Origin: Cryomorphaceae bacterium
GTDB lineage: Bacteria; Bacteroidota; Bacteroidia; Flavobacteriales; Schleiferiaceae
Assembly: GCA_020832345.1 (NCBI GenBank)
Contig: JAFIEY010000048.1
Coordinates: 1-32,028 of the forward strand
DNA length: 32,028 nucleotides
Direction: 5' to 3'
Position 1 is the first letter of the stretch. Every line of letters begins with the position of its first letter. This document shows positions 4,694-32,028 of this stretch, piece by piece. The notes under the pieces were generated by a model. That model searched no databases. It was not told the DNA's origin and was given only the letters and a program-made list of their open reading frames with translations. The position numbers and the translations under genes are program-made.

Positions 4694-4729
4694 TGCTTCG
4701 TAGGATAGGAAAGTGGTAAATTTAAAGTT

Positions 4730-5266: not shown

Positions 5267-5310
5267 CTACAACTAAATTTGCACCAAAAACGATTAAACC
5301 AATAAACATT

Positions 5311-10573: not shown

Positions 10574-10579
10574 TTTGTT

Positions 10580-10655
10580 GAGTCTGTTCTAAAAAGTCCC
10601 TTTCTGCCAAAATCCCCTCGATTTTGATTGAAATCATCCTTATTGGAGTGAATTC
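10580..10655 (-). repeat. MITE-like element, copy 5, with perfect 6-base target duplication
   Basis: It runs from GAGTCTGTTCTAAAAAG to CCTTATTGGAGTGAATTC and is shortened internally. It is bounded on both sides by TTTGTT (10574-10579 and 10656-10661), an exact 6-base direct repeat that indicates insertion by transposition. It sits between the two FISUMP paralogues. Confidence 0.85.
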
Positions 10656-10727
10656 TTTGTTATTGTAGGAAAAGCCAAAAATCAGGAAAAACTGTTTTTC
10701 GATAAAAATAAATCAAAACTATTCAAA

Positions 10728-11357: not shown

Positions 11358-11367
11358 AATCACTTTT

Positions 11368-11498
11368 GAGTCCACTCTAAAAAGGATGATTTCAATCAAA
11401 ATCGACGCGGAGGGGATTTTTGAACCGGAGCAAGTGAGGATTCAAATATCTACCGACAAGGAAGATTTTGGCAGAAAGGGACTTTTTAGAGCAGACTC
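11368..11498 (+). repeat. MITE-like element, copy 6 (full-length reference copy)
   Basis: This 131-base non-coding element has near-inverted ends, GAGTCCACTCTAAAAAG and CTTTTTAGAGCAGACTC. ACTTTT flanks it on both sides (11362-11367 and 11499-11504), a 6-base target duplication. No ORF lies inside, so it would depend on a transposase encoded elsewhere. Confidence 0.87.
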
Positions 11499-11637: not shown

Positions 11638-14600
11638 CTATTTAGAGATGATAACTCTTCGAGTTATAACCCCATCCCCATTGCGAATTCTCAGCATATA
11701 AACACCGGAAGCAATGGATTCTCCACTAAACTGCTTTTCGTAGGGCCCGACAAAACCTTGCATCACTTCTGTCCAAAGGGATTTACCACTAAGGTCGAGT
11801 AGTTCAATTGCGACGTCGTCCGTTACAGGTTGGTAAAACTGTAAATTGAAGAGGCCTTCAGAAGGGTTGGGGAACACTTTTAGGCTACCGGCTAAGTTGT
11901 GCTCAATGACGGAAACATTTTCCGCCCAAACCCATTGGCAAATGGTATCAGAACCGCATAAGTTGTAGGCGATCATGCAAACCTCAAAACTATCTGTACG
12001 CGGGAACTGATAACCAACTGAGTCACCGGAAAGGGTCAGTGTATCTAAGATCCAAGTGACACTATCCGCATTTAAGCTGGTATTCTGAAAGATCACTGTA
12101 TGGCTAATTTCGGTAAAGTCAAAATTAGCGACCACAGAATCTACGGCTGTTGGTGTTACCGGTGTACGGATATCTGAACAGGCCTCTGTGCCATAATGTA
12201 TTGCTCCGTTGAAGGTACGCGGGTTACAACAATAGTCAAACGGCGAGCACAAGCCCAAGCCGGCTACCATAGTCATATCTGCATTGCTGTAGGTATTGGC
12301 ACCAACTGTATAGCTTGCATTGTACTGCACATAAATACCGTATGTGGTATTTGCATTTAGTATCAATGGATTGGTCAAATCAAATCGTACCGGTTGGTTA
12401 GCCGTTGCGACCGGTATTACACCGCTTTCTACCAAAGTCCAGTCCGCTTGTGTCGTGCCGACATATCCCCCAGTTACCACATAAATACTGATGGGTGCAT
12501 TGGTTGCGGTGGTAAATGGCCTTACCGTAAACCCAGTAACACCAAGGGTTGAGTTCACCGTGAGATCAAACATATTACCTGCGCCACAACCTGATCCTCC
12601 CTGCTGAAGACTTTGAAGTGAATCTTCATTATCTTCATATCCGATGTATAGAGTTCCGGAAGTTGTGGGCACCGTAATAGAAGGCCCTGTGGCTATAGGT
12701 GTTCCTCCGGTGGCTACATCAAACCACTCATATCCTCCGGCTGGTATCGGCATGGCATTTAGGGTAATGGAGTCATCGCCCGGACAGAATTCGGGATTAT
12801 CGACAACGGGTTGGAAAGGAATGATGGCTAAGCTATCCATGTAAATAGAATCGTTGGTCAAATTCTGATCATTCGGTAAATCTGTAAATGCCTCGATATT
12901 GATGTATCCACCACCGTAGAGGTTCACACTACCAACGGTAACCGTATCAATTTCCGTTTCTTGTAAGTTACCCGTATAGGTAAAGTTCAATGTTTCGGTA
13001 ATGTCACCCGTAATATTTACCGTAATGGGCAAACTGGTAATGGCATTAAATCCATTGTTTCTAATGGCGACCACGACGTTCAATAAACTATCACCACAAG
13101 ACATGTCCTCAGGGTTCACAACACTCATTAACTCAGCATCGTCTTCAATGGGCACACAAATCTCAATAGCTTGCGACCAATCGCTAAAACCTCCGGCTGG
13201 ACATACCTCGCGAATGAAAACACAAACACAATGTCCCATGGGTAAACTATCGAGAAGGTAGCCATTGTTATTGGCTACTGTGACCAAATTACCCATGGCA
13301 GAACCTGGGGTAAACCCACAGATATCCCACTCAATTTCCCATTCATTGACCGGTGCAACGCTCGTCCACGAAAGAGCTGTCCCGCCGGGATACAATGTGT
13401 CAACTGTAACACCATATACACCGGAACAAGGAAGTGGATCAAATTGGAATACACCGGGATCCGGGGTCGTTGTTCTCGCCACGCCTTCAATGTCTGTTGG
13501 AACATCCGACAAGACATTTGCCCCAGCATTTTTTATGGCACCTACTGTTGGGCGATAGGCGTCATTACCCGTTCCACCAACAAAGGTTGGATTAGCTTCC
13601 ATACCATTGAGGTCAAAACCATTGGATTGCCAGTCGGCAAAATCTGTAATATCTGATCCGAGATGTCCAAAGGTCATAGCACTGGGATCCGGCGTGTGGA
13701 ATACGTTGTTGTCGTAGTCAATGGTTGCTCCGGCATTAAGCATGTGAATGTAATACCCGGGTGCAGAAGCTCTGTTGAGATAAAAAATATTATTTTTCAC
13801 CTCAAAATTATTTTGTGCGCCTGAAAAATAAATCAACCTAGTTGCGCTTGAAGATGAGGCATTTGGCTGATCTACTACCACAGTATTGTGATAAACCTTC
13901 CAAAAATTATTGGCAGCACCAATAAAATACAAGGCATAAATAACGCCGCCATTGTTGATATTATACAGTAGGTTATTGGCCAAAATACTTGGACTGGCAG
14001 CAGTGGCTTGTGCACTCGACAAAAAAATTGGATAAGCCGCATTGGTATTTGTGGTATTCTGTGTATTGTTGTCGTGAATGCGGTTGTTGATGACCTGACA
14101 TCCGGCATTTCCCTGCGTTAAGAAAATACCATAGAACGTTGACAAGGTAGTTCTTCCACCTCTGGAAATGTCATTACCATCGATCACCAAACTATCCTGT
14201 GAACGCAAATACATCCCGTAGAAATAAAAATCTTCAAAGGTAGAATTAATGACCTTATTTCCGACATTTCGTTGAGCCGTACTCACCCCGCTCATGGTAA
14301 TGCCGTAGTATCCACCAATGTGGTGGTTGTTTTCAAAGGTGTTGTAGTTACCAATATCTCCTCCTAAAGTTCCCGAAGTTGGGCTTCCACTCATGACCAC
14401 ATTACAATAATTAATTGATGGAGAGTTGTCATCCGTTTCAAAGACACAATTTTTAAAGGTGTTGTGATTGGAGCTATTGGTAATCCACATCACCCAACCA
14501 AAAGAGGTTCCATTTGCCTGTATATTGAGACTATCAATGGTCACGTAATCGGCTCCATTGAAGGTAACGGTAGTTCGATCTGCGGTACCCGAAGCAGAAT

Positions 14601-17436
14601 ACGACAGGGTATTTCCGTTTCCATTTATGGTGATGGTATTGGTCGCGGAAGCGCCTTGAATTTCTTCAAAGACAATCTGCTCATTGTACGGACCTGATCC
14701 CGGGACAACGTTGAGTATTACCGGTCCACAAACTCCATAATCATTAAGCGCATCTACAAAGTCTTCAAAACTAGTAAAGTTGGTCGAAGTAGGCATTGCA
14801 AGTTGATTGAGGGTAAAAGTTCCATCAAGCCCTGCGCGATATCCCATGATGGCGTCGCTATTGTTGGACAAGTCGAGATCCGGCCCGGGGTAAACACTGT
14901 CAATTTCCACTTCAATATCAAATGTTCCTGCAGCCGTTAGGGCAAATGAACCCAGCGTAATGGGAATGATATTGCCCGCATAAAACGAATCCGTAATAAT
15001 AACCGGAGTTTGCGGCACATTATTAATCATCCAATTAACTCTGATGGTTTCCGCTGTATCCGAAGCAAAATTTGCAACATTTACCGTAACATCAACTGTT
15101 CCCGGACAATCGCCGACCGGACTTACAAAACCAACGACGGCCATATCCACACCTTGAGGTGGTTCAAACTGGTACGCACCGGGATCCGGAGCCGGTAGTC
15201 TGGGAGCGCCCGAGAAGTCGTCGTTTACATAGGTTAAAACATTGTCGCCAATAAATTTCAAAGAGGCGTTTTGTGGCCGTAGTGAGTCATTGGCAAGGTT
15301 GACGAAAAACGGATCTGCAACCACCGCATTTTGGTCATAAGCACCACCGCTTACCGATTGCCAGTTTGCTAATGAACTATGGTTTCCACCCGAATATCCA
15401 ATATGGACGTTTGAGGCTGTTAAATCTGGATAATAATAAGCATTACCTTCAATATTAATATTTGCAGATGCATTGTTGAGGTAAACCATGTGCTGTTGAC
15501 CGCTACCACCTCGATTTAAATACAACAAGTTGTTTTTAAACTCCAAATTGTTTCCCGTTGATGTATGGTAATAAATCTGGGACAAAGCGGTTGAATTAGA
15601 AGGAAAATCTAAGGCAAATGTATTGTGATAAACATACCAATCACTAGAATTGAAGTTGTATATCCCGTAAAAAGCGCCCTCATTCTTCATGTTATAAATG
15701 AGGTTATTGGAAAACACATTTGGCGCTCCGGATGAACCACTTGCACTACTAAAATATACGATGTAATTTGTACTGGTATTTGTTGTTCCACCAGTTCCTG
15801 TATGAAAGTCGCGGATGGTATTTTTCTCAATCCGAGTATTGGTCATTCCGGTGAGGAATTGCATGGCGCGATGGAATGTATGATCTGAACGAGTTTCTCT
15901 GTGGATGTCATTTCCTGCAATCACCATGCTGTCTTGCGCACGGGCATAGATACCGTAATACCTCCACTCACCTATTTCATTATTGATAAAGGTATTTCCA
16001 ACTTCCATGCTGGCAGCAGATGCACCACCTACCGCGATGCCATAGTAACCACCGATGATTTTGTTGTTTTCAAAGTGGTTATAACTTCCGGAAGCGCCCA
16101 AAAGTGTTGGGGATGTTGGACTACTTGAAAGGACTATATTGGAAAAGAAGGTTGAAGTTGAGGTTGTACTCGATAGAAATTCACAATTGGTAAAAGTGTT
16201 GTGATCTGCATTTCCCGTAAGATGTACCGTCCAACCATAAGAAACACCAGTTGCCTCAATGATGAGGTTGTCAACGGTAAAGTAGTCGGTGCCGTTATAC
16301 ACCATTGTAGCCCTATCATTAGCACCACCGGCATACCTTAAAATATTACCATTTCCATTTATGGTTACGGTGTTTACCGAAGATGAACCTACAATTTCAT
16401 CAAACTCAACGCGCTCAACATAAGGACCTGAGTTTGGCACCACATTGGCGATTACCGGCCCGCAAATACCATTTACATTTAGGAAGTTTGCAAAATCTGA
16501 AAACGATTGAAAATTACTTCCTCCGGTTGCTGCTCCACTGTTAATGGTATAAGTACCGCTTATGGCAGGGGAAATGGAAACCGATAATGTATCGTTGAAG
16601 TTTATGGTATCCGCAACGTTGTTGGGCATGGAAGTCCAAGCGACTATATTATAGGTAGTATTGGCCGCAAAAGTGTTGCTGCCCAATGTAACATTGGCGA
16701 AAAATGGATTAACACCACCAATGGTATCCAATAGCGTTGTAACGTTTACAGGGGTTTGTGCAACTCCGTTGAGCGTCCAATTTACGGTAACCGAGGTAAT
16801 TTGGTTAATTCCAAAGTTTTGAACCCGAACGATGATATCTTCTTGTCCGGGGCAAAAAGCAACCGGTGCAATTAGTGAAGAGACACCGGCATCGTTAGGT
16901 GCTGTTGGCGCACTAAAGATTTCAATCTCCCTAAAATTGGGGTTTGAAGTCTGACCGGTTCCCGTCATTTGAAAACTGGTAAACCGCATTCTATTCGTCG
17001 TTAAACGAGGAATCGTTATCGAATTGATACACTGCATCGGCAAATTCGAAAACGTGTGGTGATTTTGCCAACTTGAACCATCCCAATATTGGATGGTGGC
17101 TCCAGTTAGAAACCTGGCATTGTCTTGGGCGTGATGTATCACGATTTCGTCGAAAGACTCGGCATTGGGCCAGTTCCACTCGATCCAGTTTACACCGGGT
17201 GTAGGCGATGGTGGACTTGAAGTACTGATCCACATAAGCTGAGAACCGCAAACACCATAATTTTGATCGTTTAACACGGTACAAGGGCCTGTGTTACAAG
17301 TACTGGCCGTGACCGTGGCATTGGGAGCAATGTTTACCTGTGCTTTGGCAGAAAACACAAAGGCTATGAAAAGAATTGCGCTGGAAAACATTTTCCCTAG
17401 CCCAATTCCTCTTTTTTGAAGTAATGCTTTTTTCAT
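11638..17436 (-). CDS. Giant T9SS-secreted adhesin-like protein with two beta-helix modules (paralogue A)
   Basis: This is a 1932-residue exported protein. Its order is: signal peptide 1-32 (FVFSAKA); F5/8 type C-like domain about 35-176 (WDGSSWQNHHTFSNLP, SNPNFREIEIFSAP); CARDB-like domain 181-290 (CPGQEDIIVRVQNFG); first right-handed beta-helix 295-757; second CARDB-like 763-870; second beta-helix 873-1333; Fn3-like 1336-1430; third CARDB-like 1435-1540; Ig-like 1546-1602; an unassigned beta-rich region 1605-1755; PKD-like 1766-1845; T9SS type A sorting domain 1849-1932 (LKVFPNPSEG, LLDLSGKSLW, GVYMLRI). Helix rungs repeat phrases such as ITINGNGN, HNTFKNC and GGYYGI. It should cross the outer membrane by T9SS and be attached or released. 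Beta-helix plus discoidin domains suggest glycan or surface binding. Its sorting domain is the most diverged of the four paralogues. Confidence 0.9.
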   Translation of the reverse strand: MKKALLQKRGIGLGKMFSSAILFIAFVFSAKAQVNIAPNATVTASTCNTGPCTVLNDQNYGVCGSQLMWISTSSPPSPTPGVNWIEWNWPNAESFDEIVIHHAQDNARFLTGATIQYWDGSSWQNHHTFSNLPMQCINSITIPRLTTNRMRFTSFQMTGTGQTSNPNFREIEIFSAPTAPNDAGVSSLIAPVAFCPGQEDIIVRVQNFGINQITSVTVNWTLNGVAQTPVNVTTLLDTIGGVNPFFANVTLGSNTFAANTTYNIVAWTSMPNNVADTINFNDTLSVSISPAISGTYTINSGAATGGSNFQSFSDFANFLNVNGICGPVIANVVPNSGPYVERVEFDEIVGSSSVNTVTINGNGNILRYAGGANDRATMVYNGTDYFTVDNLIIEATGVSYGWTVHLTGNADHNTFTNCEFLSSTTSTSTFFSNIVLSSSPTSPTLLGASGSYNHFENNKIIGGYYGIAVGGASAASMEVGNTFINNEIGEWRYYGIYARAQDSMVIAGNDIHRETRSDHTFHRAMQFLTGMTNTRIEKNTIRDFHTGTGGTTNTSTNYIVYFSSASGSSGAPNVFSNNLIYNMKNEGAFYGIYNFNSSDWYVYHNTFALDFPSNSTALSQIYYHTSTGNNLEFKNNLLYLNRGGSGQQHMVYLNNASANINIEGNAYYYPDLTASNVHIGYSGGNHSSLANWQSVSGGAYDQNAVVADPFFVNLANDSLRPQNASLKFIGDNVLTYVNDDFSGAPRLPAPDPGAYQFEPPQGVDMAVVGFVSPVGDCPGTVDVTVNVANFASDTAETIRVNWMINNVPQTPVIITDSFYAGNIIPITLGSFALTAAGTFDIEVEIDSVYPGPDLDLSNNSDAIMGYRAGLDGTFTLNQLAMPTSTNFTSFEDFVDALNDYGVCGPVILNVVPGSGPYNEQIVFEEIQGASATNTITINGNGNTLSYSASGTADRTTVTFNGADYVTIDSLNIQANGTSFGWVMWITNSSNHNTFKNCVFETDDNSPSINYCNVVMSGSPTSGTLGGDIGNYNTFENNHHIGGYYGITMSGVSTAQRNVGNKVINSTFEDFYFYGMYLRSQDSLVIDGNDISRGGRTTLSTFYGIFLTQGNAGCQVINNRIHDNNTQNTTNTNAAYPIFLSSAQATAASPSILANNLLYNINNGGVIYALYFIGAANNFWKVYHNTVVVDQPNASSSSATRLIYFSGAQNNFEVKNNIFYLNRASAPGYYIHMLNAGATIDYDNNVFHTPDPSAMTFGHLGSDITDFADWQSNGFDLNGMEANPTFVGGTGNDAYRPTVGAIKNAGANVLSDVPTDIEGVARTTTPDPGVFQFDPLPCSGVYGVTVDTLYPGGTALSWTSVAPVNEWEIEWDICGFTPGSAMGNLVTVANNNGYLLDSLPMGHCVCVFIREVCPAGGFSDWSQAIEICVPIEDDAELMSVVNPEDMSCGDSLLNVVVAIRNNGFNAITSLPITVNITGDITETLNFTYTGNLQETEIDTVTVGSVNLYGGGYINIEAFTDLPNDQNLTNDSIYMDSLAIIPFQPVVDNPEFCPGDDSITLNAMPIPAGGYEWFDVATGGTPIATGPSITVPTTSGTLYIGYEDNEDSLQSLQQGGSGCGAGNMFDLTVNSTLGVTGFTVRPFTTATNAPISIYVVTGGYVGTTQADWTLVESGVIPVATANQPVRFDLTNPLILNANTTYGIYVQYNASYTVGANTYSNADMTMVAGLGLCSPFDYCCNPRTFNGAIHYGTEACSDIRTPVTPTAVDSVVANFDFTEISHTVIFQNTSLNADSVTWILDTLTLSGDSVGYQFPRTDSFEVCMIAYNLCGSDTICQWVWAENVSVIEHNLAGSLKVFPNPSEGLFNLQFYQPVTDDVAIELLDLSGKSLWTEVMQGFVGPYEKQFSGESIASGVYMLRIRNGDGVITRRVIISK
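13451..13566 (-). repeat. 116-base tract identical between paralogues A and D
   Basis: By direct comparison, every base from 13451 to 13566 equals 28952 to 29067, ending at a mismatch (A versus C) at 13567/29068. Another 49 identical bases lie at 13391-13439 and 28892-28940. Flanking coding sequence differs more, so the tract has been exchanged recently or is under unusual constraint. Confidence 0.85.
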
Positions 17437-17776
17437 CGTGATTTACTGAATTTTAAATTTAATTAATGATGGGTAAAGTTAATCAAACAAATCATTAACA
17501 CAATAAACTTTTTACAAAATATTTTTGTTTCTTATAAAAATAAATTTTTAGTTATCATTGTAAATAGTTTAATTTACCACAAACTATAGCAACAACCAAT
17601 TAATAAATAGTAATTTAAAAAATTATTGAAAAAATAATTAGGTGATTTTTATAAAAAATAAATAGAAGTATTATTCTTTATAAATAAAAATATAATTCTA
17701 TTGATTTTATAATAATTAAACACACAATCCAGTAACATATATGGATTTTAACGCATGTTTTATACGGTAAAACAAA

Positions 17777-17804
17777 AAATTTACCTCATAAATGAGGTGA
17801 ATTT
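17777..17804 (-). terminator. Second hairpin downstream of paralogue B
   Basis: ACCTCAT-AA-ATGAGGT (17783-17798) is a perfect 7-bp stem, extended by AAATT/AATTT with one mismatch. T-runs follow on both strands, so it may act in either direction. It could also be an element in the leader of gene A. Confidence 0.5.
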
Positions 17805-17860
17805 TTTAGTGCGTTCGTATTGCTTTAAGGCTACTTTAGAAAATATTGGATGAACAAAAA

Positions 17861-17892
17861 AAAGCACAAGACTAAGATTAGCCTTGTGCTTT
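17861..17892 (-). terminator. Rho-independent terminator of paralogue B
   Basis: AAAGCACAAG and CTTGTGCTTT pair around a partly paired inner segment (ACTAAGATTAGC). On the minus strand the stem is followed by a T-run (complement of A at 17856-17863). The same hairpin with one base change is found after paralogue D at 27041-27072. Confidence 0.88.
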
Positions 17893-17916
17893 ACATTGAA
17901 ATTATCTAAAAAATGA

Positions 17917-20900
17917 CTACTTCCCGATTACAACTCGTCTGGTGATTATCCCATCGCGGTTGTTGATGCGCAACATATACATACCGGACGACAAATCATT
18001 TCGGTCAAAATCCTTTTGGTAAACACCGGAAAAACCTTTATGGTGTTCCAAGAAAATGGTTTTACCACTTAAATCCAGAAGCTCTATGGTTATATCACTG
18101 TTTTTGAGCTGATCAAAACTGAGGGTAAACCGACCTTCATTGGGGTTGGGGAAAACTTCAAGACTCACTGCCAAACTGTGTTCATCAACAGATATATTTT
18201 CCGCCCAAACCCATTTGCATACTGAGTCGGAACCACAACCATTTTCACCAACTACGCAAACCTGAAAGCTGTCGGTTCTAGGAAACTGGAAACTTACAGA
18301 ATCGCCCATGGCGGTACCTAGCGTATCGAAATACCAGGTTACCGAATTGGCATTTTTACCCGTAAATACAAAGTCCACCGTATGACTCACTGTTGCCCAG
18401 TCAAAATCCACGTCCAGTGTGTCTTCAATTATTGGAATGGCCTCTACCCTAACATCTGAACAGGCCTCGGATCCATAAATGATTCGTCCGTTCCACATTC
18501 TCGGACGGAAGGTGCTTCCAAAGGGGTATGATTTACCTACACCCTCCAATATGTCCATGTCGTTATTGGAAACATAAACGCTGTATTCACTGCTGGTGGA
18601 TGTATAGCGAACACTCGCGTCGGTTCGGGTGAGATAAAAGGAATACGTCAATCCTCCGGTTAAGGTAAGCGGCGTGGTAAGGGTTAGCCTATGTAGGACA
18701 TCTATCGTTACACTTTGGTTGGTGAAGGTTTCTAAAAGTGTCCAATCCGCAGCTGTAGCTTCCGACCCTTGATAGGAGCCTACCTTATAATATATCTCAA
18801 ATCCTGCCGCTGCAGAAGTTGAGGAGGGAAGCATATCAAATCCATACACGTTTAAGGTGTTGTGAATGACAAAGTCCACCATATTACCGTTCTGACCGTT
18901 TCCGGCCAGGGTAGTTGTAAGCAGCGAGTCATTTAAGTCGTTGTACTCCACATAAACAGGCAGCGCACCTGTAGCTACGGTAATTGCATCACTTGTGGCA
19001 AAAGGCGTCCCTCCTACCGGAACATCAAACCAATTGTAATTTGCGCCGGGAATGGAAAGGGCATTAAAGGTCACCGAATCATCTCCGAAACAAATAAAGG
19101 CATCGTCCAGAACCGGTTCATAAGGCATTATCATAAGACTGTCGAGCTGAATACTGTCATTGGACGTCAACTGATCGTTGGGAAGCTGGGTGTAGGCATT
19201 TACGTTTACATAACCTCCAAAATAGCTGTTTAAGGTTCCCACCGTAACCGTATCCACTTCATTTTCCAACAAATTTCCGGTATAGGTAAACGTGATTGTT
19301 TGGTTGAAATCTCCGGTAACTTCTACGGTTATGGGCATCGAGGTTATGGCGTTAAATCCGTTGTTACGAATGGCCACAACAACATTCATGGCACTGTCAC
19401 CGCATACCATTTGATCGGGAGAAATCACGCTGAGCATTTCCGCATCGTCTTCGATGGGCACACAAAGTTCAATCGGTCCGGTCCAATTACCATACCCACC
19501 AGAGATACATTTTTCGCGTATATAAACGCAAACACACATCCCCATCGGTAAATTCGACAACACATAATTATTGTTGGTGGTTACAACGGAATCCAAATTA
19601 CCCATTGCCGAACCGGGAACAAAGCCACATGTATCCCATTCAACCTGCCATTCGTTAATTCCAGCGACACTTGTCCATGATATTTCCGCACCACCGGGAA
19701 ACAGGGTATCAACTATAAAGTCGTATGCCCCTGAGCAAGGAAGGGGATCGAATTGATAGGCACCCGGATCCGGAGAGGTTGTACGCGCTACACCTTCTAT
19801 ATCCGTAGGTACGTCTGAAAGCACATTTGCGCCAATGGCTTTTACAGCACCTACGGTAGGACGGTAATAGTCAAGGCCCATTCCGCCCAGGAAAGTAGGA
19901 TTGGTTTCTATACCATTGATGTCATAGCCAGCAGACTGCCAATCTGAAAAGGTGGTTATTGCACCATTACTAAATCCAAAGTCCATGTTAGCGGAATGCG
20001 GCGAATAATACACATTATTGTCAATGCTTGTAACCGGCATTGCACTGGAGAGGTACATAAAAGTTGGCGAAGCAGATGGTCGATCAATATAAAAAATATT
20101 GTTCATAATATCCATATCCCATTGCGCACCGGTAACCCAAATACCCCTAGTGGCGGAAGTCGTGGTTGATGAAGGCTGGTCGATTACAATGGTATTGTGA
20201 TAAATGCCCCAGTGGGTGTTGGCTGCTCCCACCAAATACATTCCGTAAATGGTACCACTATTATTTATGTTATAAATGAGGTTATTGGCCAAAACATTTA
20301 TGTTATTTGCAGAACCTGTGGCTCCCGACATGTAAATCGGATAAGCCAAACTGGTACTCGTGGTGTTTTGGTTTGAGTTGTCGTGAATTCGGTTGTCCAT
20401 AACGGTTGATCCACCAATACCTGTCAGCATATAAATACCGTAGAAAGAGGAAAGTGTTGACCGACCGGATCGACTGATGTCATTTCCGCTAATGGTCATA
20501 TCGTCCTGTGACCTGAGGTACATACCGTATAAATAAAAGTCTTCAAAAACACTATTGGTCACGGTATTTCCTACGCATCGTGAAGCCGCACTCGCCCCGT
20601 TCATCGCAAAACCATAATAACCTCCAATGTGGGTGTTGTTGTCAAATGTATTATAATTTCCAGCATTTCCCGCAGTAGTAGCACTCGTCGGACTATTACT
20701 CATCACCACGTTGGAAAAATTTAAGGATGTAGAATTTGCATCAGTTTCAAATTGACAATTGGTAAAGGTATTATGGTCTGCGCCATTTAAAAGGTGTACT
20801 ACCCAGCCAAAAGTCCCCGCTGCATTAATGTATAGGCTGTCGATGGTCATGTAGTCGGTTCCGTTTAGCGTTAGCGTAGATCTTTCACTTGTAGAGGTCG

Positions 20901-22002: not shown

Positions 22003-22070
22003 AACAGTTTAATTTTAGTTGATTATAAAATTAGGTGGGAAAAAAATTCACACCATAGATGAGTATTCTT

Positions 22071-22078
22071 CAAAATTA
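22071..22078 (-). promoter_or_regulatory. -7 box candidate for paralogue B
   Basis: Read on the minus strand this is TAATTTTG, an exact TAnnTTTG match, about 68 bases upstream of the ATG at 22002. A TTTG on the same strand at 22096-22093 is somewhat close for a -33 element. Confidence 0.45.
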
Positions 22079-22458
22079 CAGAATTTAAAACACAAATCCA
22101 TTAAAAACACAAAAAAAATATCATCAACTAAATGTAAGTTTTTATCTAGCAGCTAGGAATACAATTAAATTGAGTAATTTAATTAACAATATTAATTATT
22201 TATACAATCAACTAATTTACAGGTTTCCTTTTAAAACAAACCAAACCATTACAAAAACATTTTATAATTTTGTTGTACAAATAAATTTACACCCAGCAGT
22301 AAATACCTACTTTATTATATTGAAGACCTCGTGTTTTATGAAAAAAAATACCAACCTTCAAAAAAAACAATGCAATCAAAAAATAAAAATATTAACAATT
22401 TCTTAATGCTAATCCAACGATTTAACACCTAAAAATTGATTCCACCTAACCAGAAACA

Positions 22459-22496
22459 AAAAAGCGCAAACCCATATAGAGGTTTGCGCTTTTTTG
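22459..22496 (-). terminator. Rho-independent terminator of paralogue C
   Basis: AAAAAAGCGCAAACC (22459-22473) and GGTTTGCGCTTTTTT (22482-22496) form a perfect 15-bp stem including the A/T arms, with an 8-base loop. T-runs on both strands make it bidirectional in form. Its sequence is unlike the terminators of B and D. Confidence 0.9.
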
Positions 22497-22534
22497 TTTT
22501 TGACTTTTCTTGAAGTCACAATAAAATAACAGGA

Positions 22535-25500
22535 CTATTTCCCGATTACAACTCGTCTGGTGATTATCCCTTCGCGGTTGTTGATACGCAACATATACAT
22601 TCCCGAAGACAAATCATTTCGGTCAAAATCCTTTTGGTAAACACCGGTAAACCCTTTGTGGTGTTCAGTCCAAACCGTTTTTCCACTCAAATCCAATAAC
22701 TGTATGGTTACATCACTGCTTTGTTGCTGGTTAAAGCTTAGGGTAAATCTCCCTTCGTTTGGATTGGGGTAAACGGAAAGACTGCCCGCCAAACTGTGTT
22801 CGGCTACAGAAATGTTTTCTGCCCATATCCATTTGCAAACAGTATCGTTTTCACAGGCGCCATAAGCGATGAGGCACACCTCAAAAGAGTCAGTTCTGGG
22901 AAATTGATAACTTACCGTATCGCCAGAGGCCACCGCTAAGGTATCAAAAAACCAAACTACACTATCCGCATTTATACTGGTGTTAAAGAAAGTAACAGTA
23001 TGGCTAATTTGATTATACTCAAATTCCGCAACGATACTGTCGGGGGGCACAATGGCTGAAACCGGCGTTCTAACTCCTGAACAGGCCTGCGAACCATAAT
23101 GAACTCTACCCTTCCAACTTCTGGGGCTTAAATTGGAAGTCCAACTTCCTGCTTTGGTATTTCCGGTGAGAATTTCCATATCCGCATTTGCGCCCAAACT
23201 CGAACCCAAAGGATCGCCTGAGGCATAACTAAAACTTCCGGTGACGGGCTGAAGGTATATACCATATACTTGTCCGGCGCTTACGGGAATAGGATTCGCC
23301 AAGTTAAACTTCGCATAAGTTGCAGAACCCAACAACTGGACATTGGGAACAGTTTCAACGAAAATCCATGAGGCCGGATTCGTTTGATGTCCTTGCAATG
23401 ACCCAACTCTGTAGTAAACATCAATATCAGAAACTGTAGTCGAAGTACCCATTACAGAAAAACCTGTGAGGGTAACAGCGTTAAAAATATCCAGATCAAA
23501 CATATTACCGCCGTTGCCGGTTGAGGTATTTCCGGTCGCCGTGGATTGTAAAGAATCATTGATATCGTTGTAACCAACATAAAAAGTTGGATTACCGATA
23601 TTGGGTACAGTCACGGAATCACCTGTAAAAATCGGCACTCCTCCCATGGGCACATCATACCAATTATACATGATATTCGGAATGTGCAATGCATTAAACG
23701 TAACATTCGGTTCGTTTGGACATGCGTAAGTGTCAAATATCAGCGGTTGGTATGGCAATATAACCAGACTATCGTGGCTAACCGTATCATTGGAGGTCAG
23801 TTGATCATTGGGCAGGCTTACACTCGCCACCACATTAATGAATCCGCCCCAATAGCTATTGATGGTGCCTACTGTCACGGTATCTACTTGGGTTTCTAAT
23901 AAATTTCCCGTGTAGGTGAAGGTAAAAGTTTGATTAATGTCACCACTTATATCAACGGTGATGGGTAAATTGGTAATGGGATTAAATCCGTTATTGCGAA
24001 TTTCAACCATAACCGGCATTAAGCTATCACCACAACCCATGTCTTCAGGAGTAACCAAGGAAACAAGCTCTGCATCGTCTTCAATGGGCACACAAATTTC
24101 CAGAGGTAATGACCATGGTCCATATCCGCCTTGTGGACATTTTTCCCTAACAAACAAGCAAATACAAACACCCATTGGCGGATTAACAACAGAGTAGTTG
24201 TTGTTGACCGTAACCACAGAATCTAAAGTACCCATGTTAGAGCCGGGAATAAAACCACAGGTACCCCACTCTACTTGCCATTCACTGCTCAAACTGGACC
24301 AGCTTACCAAAGCGCCACCAGGCCAAACGCTGTCTAGGGTTAAGTCTCCCGCACCTGTACATGGAAGCGGCGTAAACTCGTAAGCACCGGGATCCGGTGA
24401 GGCTGAACGAGCCACACTGTCGTAGTCCAACGGAACATAAGTCAACATATTGGTGCCTAAACCATTGATAGCACCAGCGCCGGGACGAAGGAAATCCGTT
24501 CCCATTCCTCCGATGAAAGTAGGGTTAAAGAAAGTTCCGTTTTGGTCATAGGCCAGATTATTTGCCATTTGCCAATCGGCAAAGGTGCTATGGTCAGTAG
24601 AGTGATATCCAAAGGCAACATTTGAATTACTAATATCATCTGCCCAATATGCGTTGTTGTCAATTTCGACCAAAGTTGTTGCGGTATTGATGTAAACCAA
24701 ATGTTGAGCACCACCATTCCCTCTGTTGAGGTACATGATGTTATTTTTAAACTCACAAGAATTGGCATTACTCGTCACGTAAAAAAGGCGTGTATTTCCG
24801 CTTCCAGGGGCATTGGGTTCGTCAATGTTGATGGTGTTGTGAAGCCATTTGACAAAACTATTGTTTGAAGAGTAAACAGCGTAAAGCAATCCCCCACCCT
24901 GAATGTTATAGATTTGGTTGTTAGCGACAACCAACGGATCATTAAAATTCATCGAAGTTGTATTGGTTCTAAAATCCATTACATAGATGGTAGAGGTGCT
25001 GGTAGGCTGTCCATTGTGGGTATCGTGAATTCGGTTGTTCATGATTTTGCCATTCGGCATACCATTTCTCGCGGTCAAAGCATAAATAATCGTTCCGTTT
25101 GTTCTACCGGGCCTGCTGATGTCATTCCCGATGATTTCCATATCGGCCTGCGCACTTGCGTAGATTCCGTAATAACTCCAATCCAGTAGTTCGCAGTTGA
25201 TAATTCGGTTTCCGGGCGAGTTGTTGTTGGCGGAAAGACCATTCATAGCAATACTGTAATATCCTCCCTCAAAAAAACAATTTTCGATGGTGGTGAAGCT
25301 AGCAGCATTGCCGTAAGTTGTTGCACTGGTAGCTGACCCACTGGCAACCAGACCCGCAGCGTTGGCTGAGGTAAGTGTTGTGCTGGATAAAAAAGAACAA
25401 TTATAAAAGCCGTTATTACTGGTTCCATTGGTGAGGTGAACGGCCCACGCAAACGAAGCTCCATTTGCTTCAATAATCAAATCATTAATGGTCATCCATT

Positions 25501-26659
25501 TGGTTCCGCTTAATGTAAGGGTCGTCCGGTCTCCGGTTGCCGTGGCGGAATAAACTAGGGAATTTCCGTTACCGTTTATGGTGATGGTATTTACCGTGTC
25601 AGCGCCTACGATATCTTCAAATTCAACTTGTTCATTGTAAGGCCCGGTTCCGGCAGCAACATTAGCAATCACAGGTCCGCAAATCCCATTGACATTAAGG
25701 AAAGTTGCAAATTCGGTAAAGCTACTAAAGTTTGTACCGCCAGTTGCTGCAAAAGAATTTATGGTAAAAGTGCCGGCAATAGCAGCTGCGATGGTGCGGG
25801 TCAATGTATCATTGAAATTTGTTGTGTCTGCGGTATTGTTGGGCAAGAAAGTCCAGGCTTCGATGGTGTAACTTGTGTTTGGGGCAAAAACCCATGAACC
25901 AAGGGTGATATCGGCAAAGTGTGATCCCAATCCGCCAATCGTATCCAAAGTCTGGGTTACGGTTGTACCGGTTTGAGGCACCCCGTTTACTGACCACCCT
26001 ACTTGTACCGTATTGATTTGGTTGACGCCAAAGTTCTGAACGCGAACAATAATATCTTCTGTTCCTGGGCAAAATGCAACGGGGCTCACTAATGCAGCAA
26101 CGCCAGCATCATTCGGTGAAGTAGGCGCACTGAAAATCTCAATCTCCCGAAAATTGGGGTTTGAGGTCTGACCTGATCCCGTCATTTGAAAACTGGTAAT
26201 CCGCATCCTGTTTGTGGTTAGGCGCGGAATGGTTAAAGAATTTACACACTGCATGGGTAAATTGGAGTACGTATAGTGGTTTTGCCAACTCGTACCATCC
26301 CAATATTGAATAAGTCCGCCGGTAAGAAACCTACCTGTAGCATTGGCGTGATGAAAAACGATTTCATCAAAAGATTCAGCATTGGGCCATTGCCACTCTA
26401 TCCAGTCTGTTCCGACAACAGAAGAAGGTGGGTTTGAGGTGCTAATCCAAACCAATTGTGTACCACAGGTACTGTAGTTTTGATCGTTGAATGCCTCGCA
26501 ATTTACACTTGTTCTACAATCACTTCCAGAAACCGTAGCGGCCGGAGCAATGTTAGTTTGGGCTTGAGCCTTTCCAGGTAAAAACACCCCCCCAAAAAAT
26601 AAGGCATATCCTGAGAAAATCCCTATCCATTTTGTAAGACTTGGTAATGTTAACTTCAT
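22535..26659 (-). CDS. T9SS-secreted adhesin-like protein with one beta-helix module (paralogue C)
   Basis: This is a 1374-residue exported protein with a signal peptide at 1-33 (FLPGKAQA). F5/8 type C-like (36-178, with WDGTSWQNHYTYSNLP), CARDB-like (182-292), right-handed beta-helix (about 295-755), Fn3-like, CARDB-like, Ig-like (WYDVPMGG), a beta-rich region, PKD-like and T9SS sorting domains follow. The last domain opens LSVYPNPNEGRFTLSF and ends in MYMLRINNREGIITRRVVIGK. Its N-terminal domain is close to that of A, whereas its region after the Ig-like domain (MFDLDIFN, VGSLQGH, QVYGIYLQPVTG, SPRSWKGRVHYGS) is close to D. The beta-helix is more diverged than in the others. It has its own terminator and a 437-base upstream gap, so it is probably a single transcription unit. 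Confidence 0.9.
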   Translation of the reverse strand: MKLTLPSLTKWIGIFSGYALFFGGVFLPGKAQAQTNIAPAATVSGSDCRTSVNCEAFNDQNYSTCGTQLVWISTSNPPSSVVGTDWIEWQWPNAESFDEIVFHHANATGRFLTGGLIQYWDGTSWQNHYTYSNLPMQCVNSLTIPRLTTNRMRITSFQMTGSGQTSNPNFREIEIFSAPTSPNDAGVAALVSPVAFCPGTEDIIVRVQNFGVNQINTVQVGWSVNGVPQTGTTVTQTLDTIGGLGSHFADITLGSWVFAPNTSYTIEAWTFLPNNTADTTNFNDTLTRTIAAAIAGTFTINSFAATGGTNFSSFTEFATFLNVNGICGPVIANVAAGTGPYNEQVEFEDIVGADTVNTITINGNGNSLVYSATATGDRTTLTLSGTKWMTINDLIIEANGASFAWAVHLTNGTSNNGFYNCSFLSSTTLTSANAAGLVASGSATSATTYGNAASFTTIENCFFEGGYYSIAMNGLSANNNSPGNRIINCELLDWSYYGIYASAQADMEIIGNDISRPGRTNGTIIYALTARNGMPNGKIMNNRIHDTHNGQPTSTSTIYVMDFRTNTTSMNFNDPLVVANNQIYNIQGGGLLYAVYSSNNSFVKWLHNTINIDEPNAPGSGNTRLFYVTSNANSCEFKNNIMYLNRGNGGAQHLVYINTATTLVEIDNNAYWADDISNSNVAFGYHSTDHSTFADWQMANNLAYDQNGTFFNPTFIGGMGTDFLRPGAGAINGLGTNMLTYVPLDYDSVARSASPDPGAYEFTPLPCTGAGDLTLDSVWPGGALVSWSSLSSEWQVEWGTCGFIPGSNMGTLDSVVTVNNNYSVVNPPMGVCICLFVREKCPQGGYGPWSLPLEICVPIEDDAELVSLVTPEDMGCGDSLMPVMVEIRNNGFNPITNLPITVDISGDINQTFTFTYTGNLLETQVDTVTVGTINSYWGGFINVVASVSLPNDQLTSNDTVSHDSLVILPYQPLIFDTYACPNEPNVTFNALHIPNIMYNWYDVPMGGVPIFTGDSVTVPNIGNPTFYVGYNDINDSLQSTATGNTSTGNGGNMFDLDIFNAVTLTGFSVMGTSTTVSDIDVYYRVGSLQGHQTNPASWIFVETVPNVQLLGSATYAKFNLANPIPVSAGQVYGIYLQPVTGSFSYASGDPLGSSLGANADMEILTGNTKAGSWTSNLSPRSWKGRVHYGSQACSGVRTPVSAIVPPDSIVAEFEYNQISHTVTFFNTSINADSVVWFFDTLAVASGDTVSYQFPRTDSFEVCLIAYGACENDTVCKWIWAENISVAEHSLAGSLSVYPNPNEGRFTLSFNQQQSSDVTIQLLDLSGKTVWTEHHKGFTGVYQKDFDRNDLSSGMYMLRINNREGIITRRVVIGK

Positions 26660-27096
26660 AGTTGGTTTACTTTTTTAACTTTTTTAAAAATTATCATCGT
26701 AAATGTACTCGATAATTTAGCAACAATTAAATAAAAATAAATCCGCTTTAAAATATTTTTTAATTATACCTAAAAAATCGCATTGCCTTTAGTTTACACT
26801 GAAAACTAATATAATGCAAACCCATTTAAAATCAAATCACAGAATCTATTTTTTAAAAATATAAAAATTCAAATTGAAAAAGGTTGAATCATCCAATAAT
26901 CTTATTACGTAAGAATAGGACTAACAACTTTAATAAAAATAATGAATATGCTTTAAGTATAATAAATCACCAAACTCTTTTTAACTTTTTTTTTGTTATT
27001 TAGGTAGCTAGGAAACCTTTAAACACCGCATAAAAATGAAAAAGCACAAGGCTAAGATTAGCCTTGTGCTTTACATTGAAATTATCTAAAAAATGA
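26660..27096. other. AT-rich intergenic region between paralogues C and D
   Basis: No gene is supported. It contains the terminator of gene D at 27041-27072. A TACATTTA (minus strand, 26707-26700) about 41 bases before the gene C start is a weak -7 candidate. Confidence 0.6.
27041..27072 (-). terminator. Rho-independent terminator of paralogue D
   Basis: AAAGCACAAGGCTAA pairs with TTAGCCTTGTGCTTT, a longer perfect stem than the paralogue B version because of one base change. Only a short T-run follows on the minus strand. Confidence 0.8.
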
Positions 27097-30000
27097 CTAC
27101 TTTCCGATTACAACTCGTCTGGTGATTATCCCATCGCGGTTGTTGATGCGCAACATATACATACCGGACGACAAATCATTTCGGTCAAAATCCTTTTGGT
27201 AAACACCGGAAAATCCGCTGTGGTGTTCCGTCCAGATGGTTTTACCACTTAAATCCAACAGCTGTATGGTCACATCACTGTTGAGTTGTTGGTCAAAACT
27301 GAGGGTAAATTTCCCTTCGTTAGGATTTGGAAACACCCGGAGACTGGCTGCCAAACTGTGTTCGGTAACCGACACATTCTCGGCCCAAATGGTTTTACAT
27401 ATTGTGTCGATTCCACAAGCACTTTCAGCTATCAAGCAAACAGTAAATGAATCGGTTACAGGGAATTGATAGTGCACTGTATCGCCACCTACAACTGTAG
27501 CAAGGGTGTCAAAAATCCATGTAATCTGGGTAGCATTTACACTGGTGTTGTAAAACTCAACGGTGTGACTGATCTGATTAAATTCAAATCCGGCAACCAC
27601 TGAATCGCTGAGTAGCGTGGGCACAACCGGGGTACGTATATCAGAGCAAGACTCTGAACCGTAGTGTACGCGACCTTTCCAGCTTCTCGGTGAAAGTGTA
27701 GAACCAAACACTCCGGATTTGGTCACACCGGTGAGGATTTCCAAATCTGCATTAACCCCTAAACTGGAACCAATTGGATTGCCGGATGCGTAACTGATAT
27801 TACCGGTAACGGGTTGTATGTAAATACCGTAAACCTGATTTGCCGGTAAAAACAAAGGTGTTGACAAGTTCATTTTTACAATGTTAGCCGCACCTTGTAG
27901 CATCACATTGGGAATGGTTTCCACCAAAGTCCATGACGCACTATTGTTTTCATGGCCTTGTAGTGAACCCACTTTATAATAAATCTGAACATCGGTCATT
28001 CCACTGCTGGCGCCGTAAATAGAAAATCCGGTAACCGATAGGGAATTGAAGATATCCAAATCAAACATACTTCCACCGTTACCCGTAGAAACGTTTCCGG
28101 TTGCAGATGATTCCAAGCTATCCATCATATCATTGTAGGCTAGAAAATAGTTGGTCGTTCCTGCGGTAGATACCTTAATAGAATCACCTACATGAATGGG
28201 AGATCCTCCCGTGCTTACATCAAACCAGTTGTAAATAACATTTGGAATGTGCATGGCTCGTAGCGTAATTGAATCCATTCCCGGACAAAATTCTGCCTCA
28301 TCCGCTTTGGGCTGAAAAGGTAAAATAATCAAGCTATCTGCGTGCATGGAGTCATTGGAAACCAACTGGTCATTGGGTAAACTGGTAAAGGCTTCAATAG
28401 AAATCCATCCACCCCAATAAGAATTGATGGTTCCCACCGTGACTGTATCAACCTCATTTTCCAATAAATTACCGGTATAGGTCATATTAAAGGTTTGATT
28501 GATATCTCCAGTAACATTTACGGTAATGGGCATTGATGTAATGGGGTTAAATCCATTATTTCTTATTTCAACCATTACCGGCATTAAGCTATCACCGCAA
28601 TCCATATCTTCCGGAGAAACAATACTGACCAGTTCTGCATCATCTTCGATGGGCACACAGATTTCTATTTCTTGCGACCAATCGCTGAAACCGCCGGCAG
28701 GACAAACTTCGCGAATGAACACACAAACACAAACACCCATCGGGAGACTATCGAGAAGGTAGCCATTGTTATTGGTTACTGTGACCAAATTACCCATGGC
28801 AGAACCCGGCGTAAATCCACAAATATCCCACTCAATTTCCCATTGGTTGACAGGTGCAACGCTCGTCCATGACAATGCTGCCCCGCCCGGATACAATGTG
28901 TCAACTGTAACACCATATACACCGGAACAAGGAAGTGGATTGAACTGAAACACACCGGGATCCGGGGTCGTTGTTCTCGCCACGCCTTCAATGTCTGTTG
29001 GAACATCCGACAAGACATTTGCCCCAGCATTTTTTATGGCACCTACTGTTGGGCGATAGGCGTCATTCCCCGTTCCACCAACAAAGGTAGGATTAGCTTC
29101 TAGTCCATTTAGATCAAATCCACTGGATTGCCAATCGGCAAAGGTATTTTGATTTCCACCACTAAACCCAAAGGTAACAGTACTCATATTGGGTGAGAAA
29201 TACACGTTGTTGTCAACATTTGATGTGGCTGGAAGTGGCTGCGTAAAATAGGAAAAGAACCCGGGTGCGGATTGCCTATTGAGGTAAAAGATATTATTGA
29301 CAATATCCATATTAGGCTGAGCACCAGAAACAAAGTTCAACCTGGTTGCAGAGGAAGATGTTGAGCCGGGCTGATCGACCACAACGGTATTGTGATAAAC
29401 CTTCCAAAAATTGTTGCCTGTTCCAATAAAATACAAGGCATAAATAACGCCGCCATTGTTGATATTATACAGTAAGTTATTGGCCAAAATACTTGGACTT
29501 GCAGCAGTGGCTTGTGCATTCGACAAATAAATTGGATAAGCCGCATTGGTATTAGTGGTGTTCTGTGTGTTGTTGTCGTGAATGCGGTTATTGATGATCT
29601 GACAACCGGCATGACCCTGTGTAAGGAAGATTCCGTAGAAGGTGGACAAGGTTGTTCTGCCCCCTCTGGAAAGGTCATTTCCATCTATTACCAAACTATC
29701 CTGCGAACGCAAATACATGCCATACAAATAAAAGTCCTCAAAGGTTGAATTGATGACCTTATTTCCAATATTTCGTTGTGCCGTACTTATGCCGCTCATG
29801 GTAATACCGTAATAACCGCCAATATGGTGATTGTTTTCAAAGGTATTGTAATTACCAATGTCACCAGTAACTGTTCCCGATGTGGGACTACCACTCATCA
29901 CAACATTACTAAAGTTGAGGGATGTTGAATTGTCATCCGTTTCAAAGACACAATTTTTAAAGGTATTGTGGTCTGCATTATTGGTAATCCACATCACCCA

Positions 30001-32028
30001 ACCGAAAGCAGTTCCATTTGCCTGTACGATGAGGCTATCTATGGTGACATAATCGGTTCCGTTAAAGGTTATGGTGTTGCGGTCTGCAGTACCCGAAGCA
30101 GAATGCGAAAGCGTATTGCCGTTTCCGTTTATGGTAATGGTATTTGCCGCTGATGTGCCCTGTATTTCGTCCAACTCAAATTGCTCATTATACGGCCCCG
30201 AACCCGGAAGAACATTTATCGTTACCGGCCCGCAAACTCCGTAGGTATTTAGTGCATCCGCCAAATCTGCAAAACTCGTGAAGTTGGTCGCTGTTGGCAC
30301 GGCCAATTGATTCATGGTAAAAGTACCCGCCAATCCGGCTCTGTATCCAATGATTTCTGCAAAATTATTGGTCAAATCAATATCCGGCCCGGGATTAACA
30401 CTATCGATATTTACCTCAATATCATAAGAAACACCAGCCGCAATGGTAAAGGTTCCCACTGTAATTGGAATCAAATTTCCGGGGTAAAAACTGTCGGTTA
30501 CTACGATCGGTGTTTGCGCTACATTGTTGATGCTCCAGCTGATGTAAATTGTATGCGCCGTATCGGATGCAAAGTTGCCAACCTCCACAGTCACATTGGC
30601 CGTTCCCGGGCAAGAAGCGTCTGGACTAAGGAAACGCACAATGCCCATATCGATTCCTTGTGGCGGTTCAAACTGATAGGCGCCCGGATCCGGTGCTGGT
30701 GTGCGCGGAAAACCTTCTATATCAGTAGGCACATCCGACAAGACATTTGTTCCCAAAAACTTAATGGCCGCAGCACGCGGACGTAAAGGTGCAGGACCTG
30801 CACCTACAAAATCTGGATTAAATTCTAGTCCGTTTACATCAAGACCAGCAGTTTGCCATGCGGCAAAACTACCTATGTTAACTCCGTTGTAACCAAAGGT
30901 AACCGCACTATTCGGGTGGAAATAGTTGTTGTTGTTGATGTCAACATTATGAGCACTACTGGTAAAATACACCTGATACTGCGTACCCCCTGCACCCCTG
31001 TCGAGATAGAAAATGTTATTTTTTATCTCCATATTGTTTTGAGCACCGGATACGAATACATTCCGCATCAAAGAGGTGGAAGTGGAATTCGGCATATCAA
31101 TCACCACGGTGTTGTGGAGAATTTTCCAGAAATTATTGGCCGCTCCTAATAAATACATGGTATAAATTGTACCTCCATTATTAATGTTATAAATGAGGTT
31201 ATTGGCCATAATATTTGGATTGCCAGCTGTTCCGGTTGCACTCGACATATAAATCGGATATGCCGCATTGGTTGTGGTCATATTCTGGTTGGAGTTATCG
31301 TGAATACGGTTGTTCATGATTCTCGCACCTTCAATACCAGTTGTAAAAAACAAGCCATAAAAAGTTGATAAGGTCGTACGAGTTGCTCTACTCAAATCAT
31401 TACCGTCTATGGTGAGACTGTCTTGCGACCTTACATACATCCCGTAAAGGGCAAAATCCTCAAAAACACTATTGAGTACCTTATTGCCCACATTTTTGGA
31501 AGCAGCTGATGGACCGTTCATGGTAATTCCGTAATAGCCTCCAATATGTGTATTGTTCTCAAAAGTATTATAACTTCCACTATTTCCAGCGAGCGTTGCC
31601 GAGGTCGGACTTCCACTCATTACAACATTAGAAAAGAAAGTAGAGGTACTGGCTGTGGAAGTTTCCATCGTACAATTTTTAAAGGTATTGTGATCAGCGC
31701 CTTGGGTCATAAACAACACCCAACCATAAGACACACCGGTGGCCACAATGTTTAAGCTGTCCACGGTGAGGTAATCCGTTCCGTTGAGCGTTAAGGTTGT
31801 TCGATTGGTGGCATCTCCCGCATAAGATAAGGTGTTCCCATTTCCGTTGATGGTAATGGTGTTTACTGAAGACGAGCCCACGATTTCATCAAACTCAACG
31901 CGCTCAACATAAGGACCTGAGTTTGGCACCACATTGGCGATTACCGGCCCGCAAATACCGTTTACATTTAGGAAGTTTGCAAAATCTGAAAACGATTGAA
32001 AATTACTTCCTCCGGTTGCTGCTCCACT
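27097..32028 (-). CDS. Giant T9SS-secreted adhesin-like protein, two beta-helix modules, 5' end outside window (paralogue D)
   Basis: The reading frame stays open to the last base of the window, giving 1643 visible residues; the signal peptide, discoidin-like and first CARDB-like domains expected from paralogue A must lie beyond it. An internal GTG at 31932 can look like a start but aligns to the middle of the first beta-helix of A. Visible order: first beta-helix (1 to about 455), CARDB-like, second beta-helix (about 570-1030), Fn3-like, CARDB-like, Ig-like (NWFDVSTGG), beta-rich region, PKD-like, and T9SS sorting domain (about 1560-1643, LRVFPNPNEGKFTLSF). The protein is a mosaic: helix 2 and Fn3 follow A, the beta-rich region follows C, and the sorting domain and terminator follow B. 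Confidence 0.9.
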   Translation of the reverse strand, partial: SGAATGGSNFQSFSDFANFLNVNGICGPVIANVVPNSGPYVERVEFDEIVGSSSVNTITINGNGNTLSYAGDATNRTTLTLNGTDYLTVDSLNIVATGVSYGWVLFMTQGADHNTFKNCTMETSTASTSTFFSNVVMSGSPTSATLAGNSGSYNTFENNTHIGGYYGITMNGPSAASKNVGNKVLNSVFEDFALYGMYVRSQDSLTIDGNDLSRATRTTLSTFYGLFFTTGIEGARIMNNRIHDNSNQNMTTTNAAYPIYMSSATGTAGNPNIMANNLIYNINNGGTIYTMYLLGAANNFWKILHNTVVIDMPNSTSTSLMRNVFVSGAQNNMEIKNNIFYLDRGAGGTQYQVYFTSSAHNVDINNNNYFHPNSAVTFGYNGVNIGSFAAWQTAGLDVNGLEFNPDFVGAGPAPLRPRAAAIKFLGTNVLSDVPTDIEGFPRTPAPDPGAYQFEPPQGIDMGIVRFLSPDASCPGTANVTVEVGNFASDTAHTIYISWSINNVAQTPIVVTDSFYPGNLIPITVGTFTIAAGVSYDIEVNIDSVNPGPDIDLTNNFAEIIGYRAGLAGTFTMNQLAVPTATNFTSFADLADALNTYGVCGPVTINVLPGSGPYNEQFELDEIQGTSAANTITINGNGNTLSHSASGTADRNTITFNGTDYVTIDSLIVQANGTAFGWVMWITNNADHNTFKNCVFETDDNSTSLNFSNVVMSGSPTSGTVTGDIGNYNTFENNHHIGGYYGITMSGISTAQRNIGNKVINSTFEDFYLYGMYLRSQDSLVIDGNDLSRGGRTTLSTFYGIFLTQGHAGCQIINNRIHDNNTQNTTNTNAAYPIYLSNAQATAASPSILANNLLYNINNGGVIYALYFIGTGNNFWKVYHNTVVVDQPGSTSSSATRLNFVSGAQPNMDIVNNIFYLNRQSAPGFFSYFTQPLPATSNVDNNVYFSPNMSTVTFGFSGGNQNTFADWQSSGFDLNGLEANPTFVGGTGNDAYRPTVGAIKNAGANVLSDVPTDIEGVARTTTPDPGVFQFNPLPCSGVYGVTVDTLYPGGAALSWTSVAPVNQWEIEWDICGFTPGSAMGNLVTVTNNNGYLLDSLPMGVCVCVFIREVCPAGGFSDWSQEIEICVPIEDDAELVSIVSPEDMDCGDSLMPVMVEIRNNGFNPITSMPITVNVTGDINQTFNMTYTGNLLENEVDTVTVGTINSYWGGWISIEAFTSLPNDQLVSNDSMHADSLIILPFQPKADEAEFCPGMDSITLRAMHIPNVIYNWFDVSTGGSPIHVGDSIKVSTAGTTNYFLAYNDMMDSLESSATGNVSTGNGGSMFDLDIFNSLSVTGFSIYGASSGMTDVQIYYKVGSLQGHENNSASWTLVETIPNVMLQGAANIVKMNLSTPLFLPANQVYGIYIQPVTGNISYASGNPIGSSLGVNADLEILTGVTKSGVFGSTLSPRSWKGRVHYGSESCSDIRTPVVPTLLSDSVVAGFEFNQISHTVEFYNTSVNATQITWIFDTLATVVGGDTVHYQFPVTDSFTVCLIAESACGIDTICKTIWAENVSVTEHSLAASLRVFPNPNEGKFTLSFDQQLNSDVTIQLLDLSGKTIWTEHHSGFSGVYQKDFDRNDLSSGMYMLRINNRDGIITRRVVIGK
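28952..29067 (-). repeat. 116-base tract identical to paralogue A
   Basis: This is the second copy of the tract at 13451-13566, at the junction of the second beta-helix and the Fn3-like domain of paralogue D. Confidence 0.85.
31883..32028 (-). repeat. 146-base near-identical tract shared with paralogue A (16394-16539)
   Basis: Only one difference is seen over the 146 bases up to the window end (G in D, A in A, in the ATACC[A/G]TTTAC segment). It encodes the start of the first beta-helix. The adjacent rungs further into the gene differ clearly in protein sequence. The tract may continue past the window. Confidence 0.85.

Follow-up and report, generated by a model that had tools for sequence, protein, structure and literature searches.

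How have four giant genes that lie side by side come to share segments with different partners along their length? The question is raised by a window of 32,028 nucleotides, which represents the entire contig C111 of a draft genome of 4.03 Mb in 260 contigs (G000). The group is little studied; its relatives are Flavobacteriales/Cryomorphaceae metagenome bins, which suggests an environmental, probably free-living lineage. The window carries four long open frames, A to D, arranged head to tail on the minus strand. The original prediction described four giant paralogues, and four genes are indeed present; however, three of them are complete and D is truncated, since the end of the window is the end of the contig.

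11638..17436, minus strand: gene A, 1932 aa, two beta-helix units, V-type I
17917..22002, minus strand: gene B, 1361 aa, one beta-helix unit, V-type III
22535..26659, minus strand: gene C, 1374 aa, one beta-helix unit, V-type II
27097..32028, minus strand: gene D, at least 1643 aa, two beta-helix units, V-type II, 5' end lost at the contig end

All four proteins end in a Por_Secre_tail sorting domain of the type IX secretion system (T9SS), which was detected by Pfam with 38.8-54.9 bits at a cut-off of 27.

11647..11877, minus strand: sorting domain of A
17926..18156, minus strand: sorting domain of B
22544..22774, minus strand: sorting domain of C
27106..27336, minus strand: sorting domain of D

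Ig_7 is a further Pfam match, as is Beta_helix in A, whereas a discoidin-like domain at the N-terminus scores below the cut-off only; the labels CARDB-like, Fn3-like and PKD-like used for further modules are a reading of the sequence by eye and not Pfam matches. The starts of A, B and C, again judged by eye, consist of charged residues followed by a hydrophobic stretch, and the start of D is missing. Terminator-like hairpins are located 3' of all four genes. The T9SS machinery is represented in the genome by SprA_N (551 bits), and A to D are thus predicted to be giant cell-surface proteins exported by this system, which might act as surface adhesins or ligand binders, for which diversity would be useful. 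The whole genome contains 145 Por_Secre_tail matches at E-values up to 0.001.

Several stretches of high identity, here called islands, connect the four genes with each other and with genes on other contigs.

16393..16539, minus strand: A/D island 1, A copy, A aa 300-348
31882..32028, minus strand: A/D island 1, D copy, 146 bp, 99.3% identity, agreement at 25/25 fourfold sites, reaching the contig end
13882..14355, minus strand: A/D island 2, A copy, A aa 1028-1185, 473 bp, 88.6% identity, in the second beta-helix
29386..29859, minus strand: A/D island 2, D copy
13168..13641, minus strand: A/D island 3, A copy, A aa 1266-1423, 472 bp, 91.3% identity, agreement at 64/83 fourfold sites
28669..29142, minus strand: A/D island 3, D copy, with its core at 28952-29067
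17861..18032, minus strand: B/D island, B copy, end of the sorting domain, stop codon and terminator
27041..27212, minus strand: B/D island, D copy, end of the sorting domain, stop codon and terminator
17146..17343, minus strand: A/C32 island, A aa 32-97, 197 bp, 97% identity, N-terminal domain
17023..17172, minus strand: A/C74 island, A aa 89-138, 149 bp, 94.6% identity, N-terminal domain, partner on another contig

The third A/D island spans the end of helix 2 to the Fn3-like region and contains a core, at 13451-13566 in A and 28952-29067 in D, of exactly 116 identical bases with zero differences, whose two flanking bases both differ. The B/D island comprises 172 bases with two differences, at positions 17871 and 17923, and the last 110 coding bases of both genes are 100% identical. 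D is nearest to A in the second beta-helix and the Fn3-like region, and in the sorting domain B and C are its nearest partners. The expected similarity of D and C after the Ig-like domain was found as well; however, C is only the second-best partner in this region (nucleotide identity about 0.60-0.69), whereas the best is a gene on another contig, C101a (about 0.67-0.76). That resemblance changes segment by segment and between non-neighbouring genes, as originally predicted, was borne out by strongly patchy identity, by partners that switch along the genes and by block trees that are incompatible with each other.

Synonymous sites show how sharply the islands are set off. Fourfold-degenerate sites of A and D agree at 21/21 positions at A aa 279-337 and at 32/37 positions at aa 1306-1365, whereas 98/301 (about 33%) agree outside the islands, which is near saturation and close to the value for unrelated third positions. 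The recombination test proposed at the outset was performed as a test of the longest shared run at variable third positions. These runs are 38 for A-D, 30 for A-C74 and 35 for B-D, and none of them was reached in 60000 permutations (0/60000 each; an earlier screen used 5000 permutations), with analytic values of about 2e-10 to 7e-10. The sharing of the islands is thus far beyond chance, even given the paralogy of the genes. Trees were also built for seven blocks and compared by AU tests. The mid-helix and the helix-end/Fn3 blocks accept each other's tree, whereas they reject those of the V, PKD-like and sorting blocks, and these three likewise reject each other's trees, with dlnL values of up to 275; the V block differs from all other blocks with dlnL values of 206-275. 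The CARDB3 block is weaker and rejects some but not all of the other trees.

The V module, a segment of about 180 aa after the Ig-like domain, points to an older layer of exchange.

12112..12669, minus strand: V module of A, type I, PHR-like beta sandwich
18433..18975, minus strand: V module of B, type III
23069..23623, minus strand: V module of C, type II
27604..28161, minus strand: V module of D, type II

In the predicted model (mean pLDDT 78.9), V forms a beta sandwich that best matches PHR domains (3no8, E 7e-6, TM 0.52-0.59), and its fold also weakly resembles that of a Kgp K3 domain; V might accordingly be a ligand-binding-like module. Three types can be distinguished in the genome: type I in A, C255 and C172, type II in C, D and C101a, and type III in B, C36 and C144. 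All three types recur in other species, with identities within a type that reach 75-79%, whereas identity between types is about 36-42%, and a V tree of 18 genes from five species consists of three monophyletic groups with support values of 92-100. These groupings are rejected by the Fn3 (dlnL 225), CARDB3 (118), PKD (233) and sorting (254) alignments, which means that V and its flanks have different histories. As judged from these alignments, either V has moved or the flanks have been homogenised around it, and both would require recombination.

The four genes belong to a much larger family, which comprises at least 21 giant T9SS-type open frames, each 779 aa or longer, spread over 17 contigs; a further three fragments lie at contig ends. 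The members are nearly all intact, and copies that do not run off their contig have a long open frame with a sorting domain at its end. The exception lies on C224 (106-2442), where the gene ends after the beta-helix region, without a sorting domain and without an open continuation in the remaining 105 bases; it is possibly a pseudogene. Sliding-window identity revealed that the best partner changes along each gene, often to another contig, and several of the best-matching segments of A and D are located on C74, C101a, C32 and C255; the A-D array is therefore not a closed system. A search of the open literature did not retrieve an earlier report of this giant T9SS family. An orphan N-terminus of 110 aa on C32 (3-332), 97% identical to A over 197 bp, is oriented as expected for the missing 5' end of D and is probably this end; the next genes on C32, read by eye, seem to encode a di-haem cytochrome peroxidase and a chloride channel.

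The closed genome G006 of the same taxonomic family contains a comparable pair of paralogues at 1773 kb and 1970 kb. These genes, which are 197 kb apart, share an internal island at aa 505-804 with 92-100% identity between flanks of about 50-70%, and a 3' tract of 2161 bp with 99.8% identity.

Gene conversion and unequal crossing-over had both been offered as explanations at the outset. Conversion is supported by the near-zero synonymous divergence in the islands, the conflicting trees, the run tests and the closed genome, whereas crossing-over did not hold up as the main process. It is likely that intragenomic gene conversion, together with older module swapping, operates in a dispersed family of intact genes; one genome per species was compared, and conversion is read from sequence patterns rather than from events between strains. 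In such a process, homologous recombination would copy sequence non-reciprocally from paralogue to paralogue, in stretches of about 100-500 bp that reach about 2 kb in a related genome, presumably by RecA-type recombination within one genome. Each gene would thereby become a patchwork of segments differing in ancestry and age, with a recent layer of tracts that have almost no synonymous divergence and an older layer, in which the three ancient types of V reside on different backbones. The 3' end with sorting domain and terminator would be a repeated target of homogenisation.

DNA could also have entered by natural transformation, so that homologous sequences from other cells, and not copies made within one genome, gave rise to the islands. 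DNA taken up from a different cell would produce an identical pattern, several species have V types in common, and ComEC, which occurs in most bacteria, is present in the genome. However, the recent islands match paralogues in the same genome at up to 99.8-100%, and most matches between species retain substantial synonymous divergence; import is thus rather unlikely.

Unequal crossing-over within the tandem array would alter the copy number and produce hybrid genes. A to D are indeed arranged head to tail, and the number of beta-helix units varies from one in B and C to two in A and D and probably four in a 3372-aa family member on C30. This gene (C30, 1979-12094), which is similar to a G003 gene on C113 and whose probable four units are read from repeated matches, suggests duplication and deletion of beta-helix units, whose gain and loss may stem from unequal exchange. 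However, the A/D and B/D islands have a boundary at either end, and the three intergenic spacers are mutually unrelated; only the first 58 bases downstream of B and of D, where the terminator lies, are alike. Non-reciprocal copying explains this better than unequal exchange does, and partners on other contigs, or 197 kb away in G006, also speak against exchange within an array. Crossing-over is therefore quite improbable as the source of the mosaics. The 3' tracts differ from classical conversion with homology at both ends, as their outer end is the end of homology at the terminator.

A mosaic could likewise be created during assembly, if similar paralogues were cross-joined from short reads into chimeric genes. 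The 260 contigs are broken inside family members: C111 ends within a tract shared with gene A; breaks in the sorting region are found on C207, C255, C187 and C252; and the first 300 codons of A may belong to D as the result of a mis-join. However, the tracts at 13168-13641 (A/D) and between B and D hold mismatches and sit inside one contig on unique flanks, and the older exchanges of V types are seen again in five species that were assembled independently. Furthermore, the same islands are present in the closed, one-contig genome G006, so the pattern is not just an assembly artefact. An artefact is very improbable, and the general mosaic pattern is independent of whether the first 300 codons of A belong to D.

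Mosaic surface proteins are a hallmark of antigenic-variation systems (PMC4534519). A dedicated system for antigenic or phase variation would combine donor cassettes with an expression locus, and the surface proteins encoded here are mosaic; however, every complete copy has its full length, from an apparent signal peptide to a sorting domain. Neither silent partial donor cassettes nor a single expression site was seen among the family copies of the genome, and together with the hairpins after all four genes this argues against one-at-a-time antigenic switching. As nothing points to a host with adaptive immunity either, a cassette system is extremely unlikely. The reshuffled modules may nonetheless contribute to variation in antigens or in ligand binding, as originally suggested. 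Uneven purifying selection, by which slow-evolving modules would reach high identity without recombination, has next to no probability: some protein modules are more conserved than others, but fourfold sites show no differences within islands and approach saturation outside them, which refutes this explanation for the recent tracts, the B/D identity extends into the non-coding terminator and tree topologies differ between blocks.

Intragenomic conversion among intact genes has a close counterpart in the homA/homB and babA/babB genes of H. pylori, in which a 3' segment is in concerted evolution by gene conversion and the middle has allelic types (PMC2795765). Both are sets of intact paralogous surface-protein genes at separate loci with a homogenised 3' segment and distinct middle types, and local near-zero synonymous divergence, significant tracts and conflicting segment trees are found here too. 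In contrast to the H. pylori genes, the family described here comprises at least 21 genes encoding proteins of up to 3372 aa, which are T9SS cargo and not beta-barrels; it has a modular beta-helix/Ig-like/PHR-like architecture with tracts over the whole gene, occurs in environmental Bacteroidota and is known from sequence alone. A partial precedent among T9SS surface proteins are the gingipains and HagA of P. gingivalis, whose adhesin domains are rearranged, whose repeats break short-read assemblies and for which gene conversion has been proposed (PMC5266723). Rearranged modules are common to both; however, differences in P. gingivalis are mostly between alleles of few genes in different strains, whereas paralogues of a large family are mosaic within one genome here. 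The molecular link between the two is the weak resemblance in fold of V to a Kgp K3 domain.

The omp-1/p28/map1 surface-protein genes of Ehrlichia are intact, lie in tandem arrays and appear to have recombined often in the past (PMC4534519). The A-D array shares these features, whereas the Ehrlichia genes belong to an intracellular pathogen and are known to be differentially expressed, and the family studied here is dispersed. The Ehrlichia proteins are also much smaller than A to D. Segmental gene conversion yields mosaic surface proteins in the msp2/p44 system of Anaplasma and the vls system of Borrelia as well (PMC4534519); unlike the genes studied here, these systems require silent donors and one expression site. 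Other bacteria thus already provide examples of the mechanism, and the novelty here lies in its scale, the class of protein and the setting. Reports of gene conversion among surface-protein genes of one genome come mostly from pathogens, where the process is tied to immune escape. A giant T9SS family of at least 21 members in an environmental lineage suggests other drivers, such as phage, polymer substrates or partner cells. It also serves as a warning that orthology calls and short-read assemblies of giant T9SS proteins are unreliable at such loci.

The 3' end seems to be affected repeatedly. Among eight hand-chosen islands with at least 95% identity and a length of at least about 100 nt, a small set that provides a lead, five extend into the final 80 codons (p = 5e-5 in a crude post hoc estimate). 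The identity of B and D carries on into the non-coding terminator and stops there, the C187/C252 island (98.6% identity) passes through the 3' flank to the terminator, and the tract of 2161 bp in G006 likewise reaches through the 3' flank to the terminator. Islands in the sorting domain were also found in G002 and G005. We tentatively suggest, as a possibility that is still doubtful, that the family evolves at two speeds: conversion would homogenise the 3' export unit of sorting domain and terminator, while three ancient V types are kept apart across species and recombined onto different backbones. If so, export would be uniform and binding diverse without dedicated variation machinery, perhaps driven by selection from phage or prey polymers.

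The position of the array was compared between congeners by means of the neighbours of Sua5. The contigs of G001 and G003 stop too close to Sua5, so that G002 and G004 are informative, and no array adjoins Sua5 in the 8.6-kb stretch of G002 or the 16-kb stretch of G004; the locus itself is therefore not conserved in the genus. A scan for sigma-70-type promoters scored no better than shuffled sequences. The window also contains a palindromic interspersed repeat of 140 bp with terminal inverted repeats of 15 nt at 1-140 and 11367-11496, with partial copies at 4729-4811, 5304-5393 and 10579-10650. The repeat folds far better than shuffled sequences (z -5.9), is often located at contig ends and has at least 40 near-identical copies in the genome (40 scored of 573 first-look candidates); few copies are present in G002 and G003 and none in G001 and G004. 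It is a MITE/REP-like element that has undergone a species-specific burst. A role as recombination trigger was considered and set aside, as copies are found genome-wide on contigs with and without family genes, though some lie near family genes. Just past the 3' end of gene A, two neighbouring genes at 9980-11357 encode Fib_succ_major (FISUMP) domains, and a restriction-modification locus at 589-4693 consists of a C5 cytosine methylase, an ApaLI-like restriction endonuclease and an N6/N4 methylase. With 4.0 Mb, the genome is larger than those of its four congeners (2.3-2.6 Mb).
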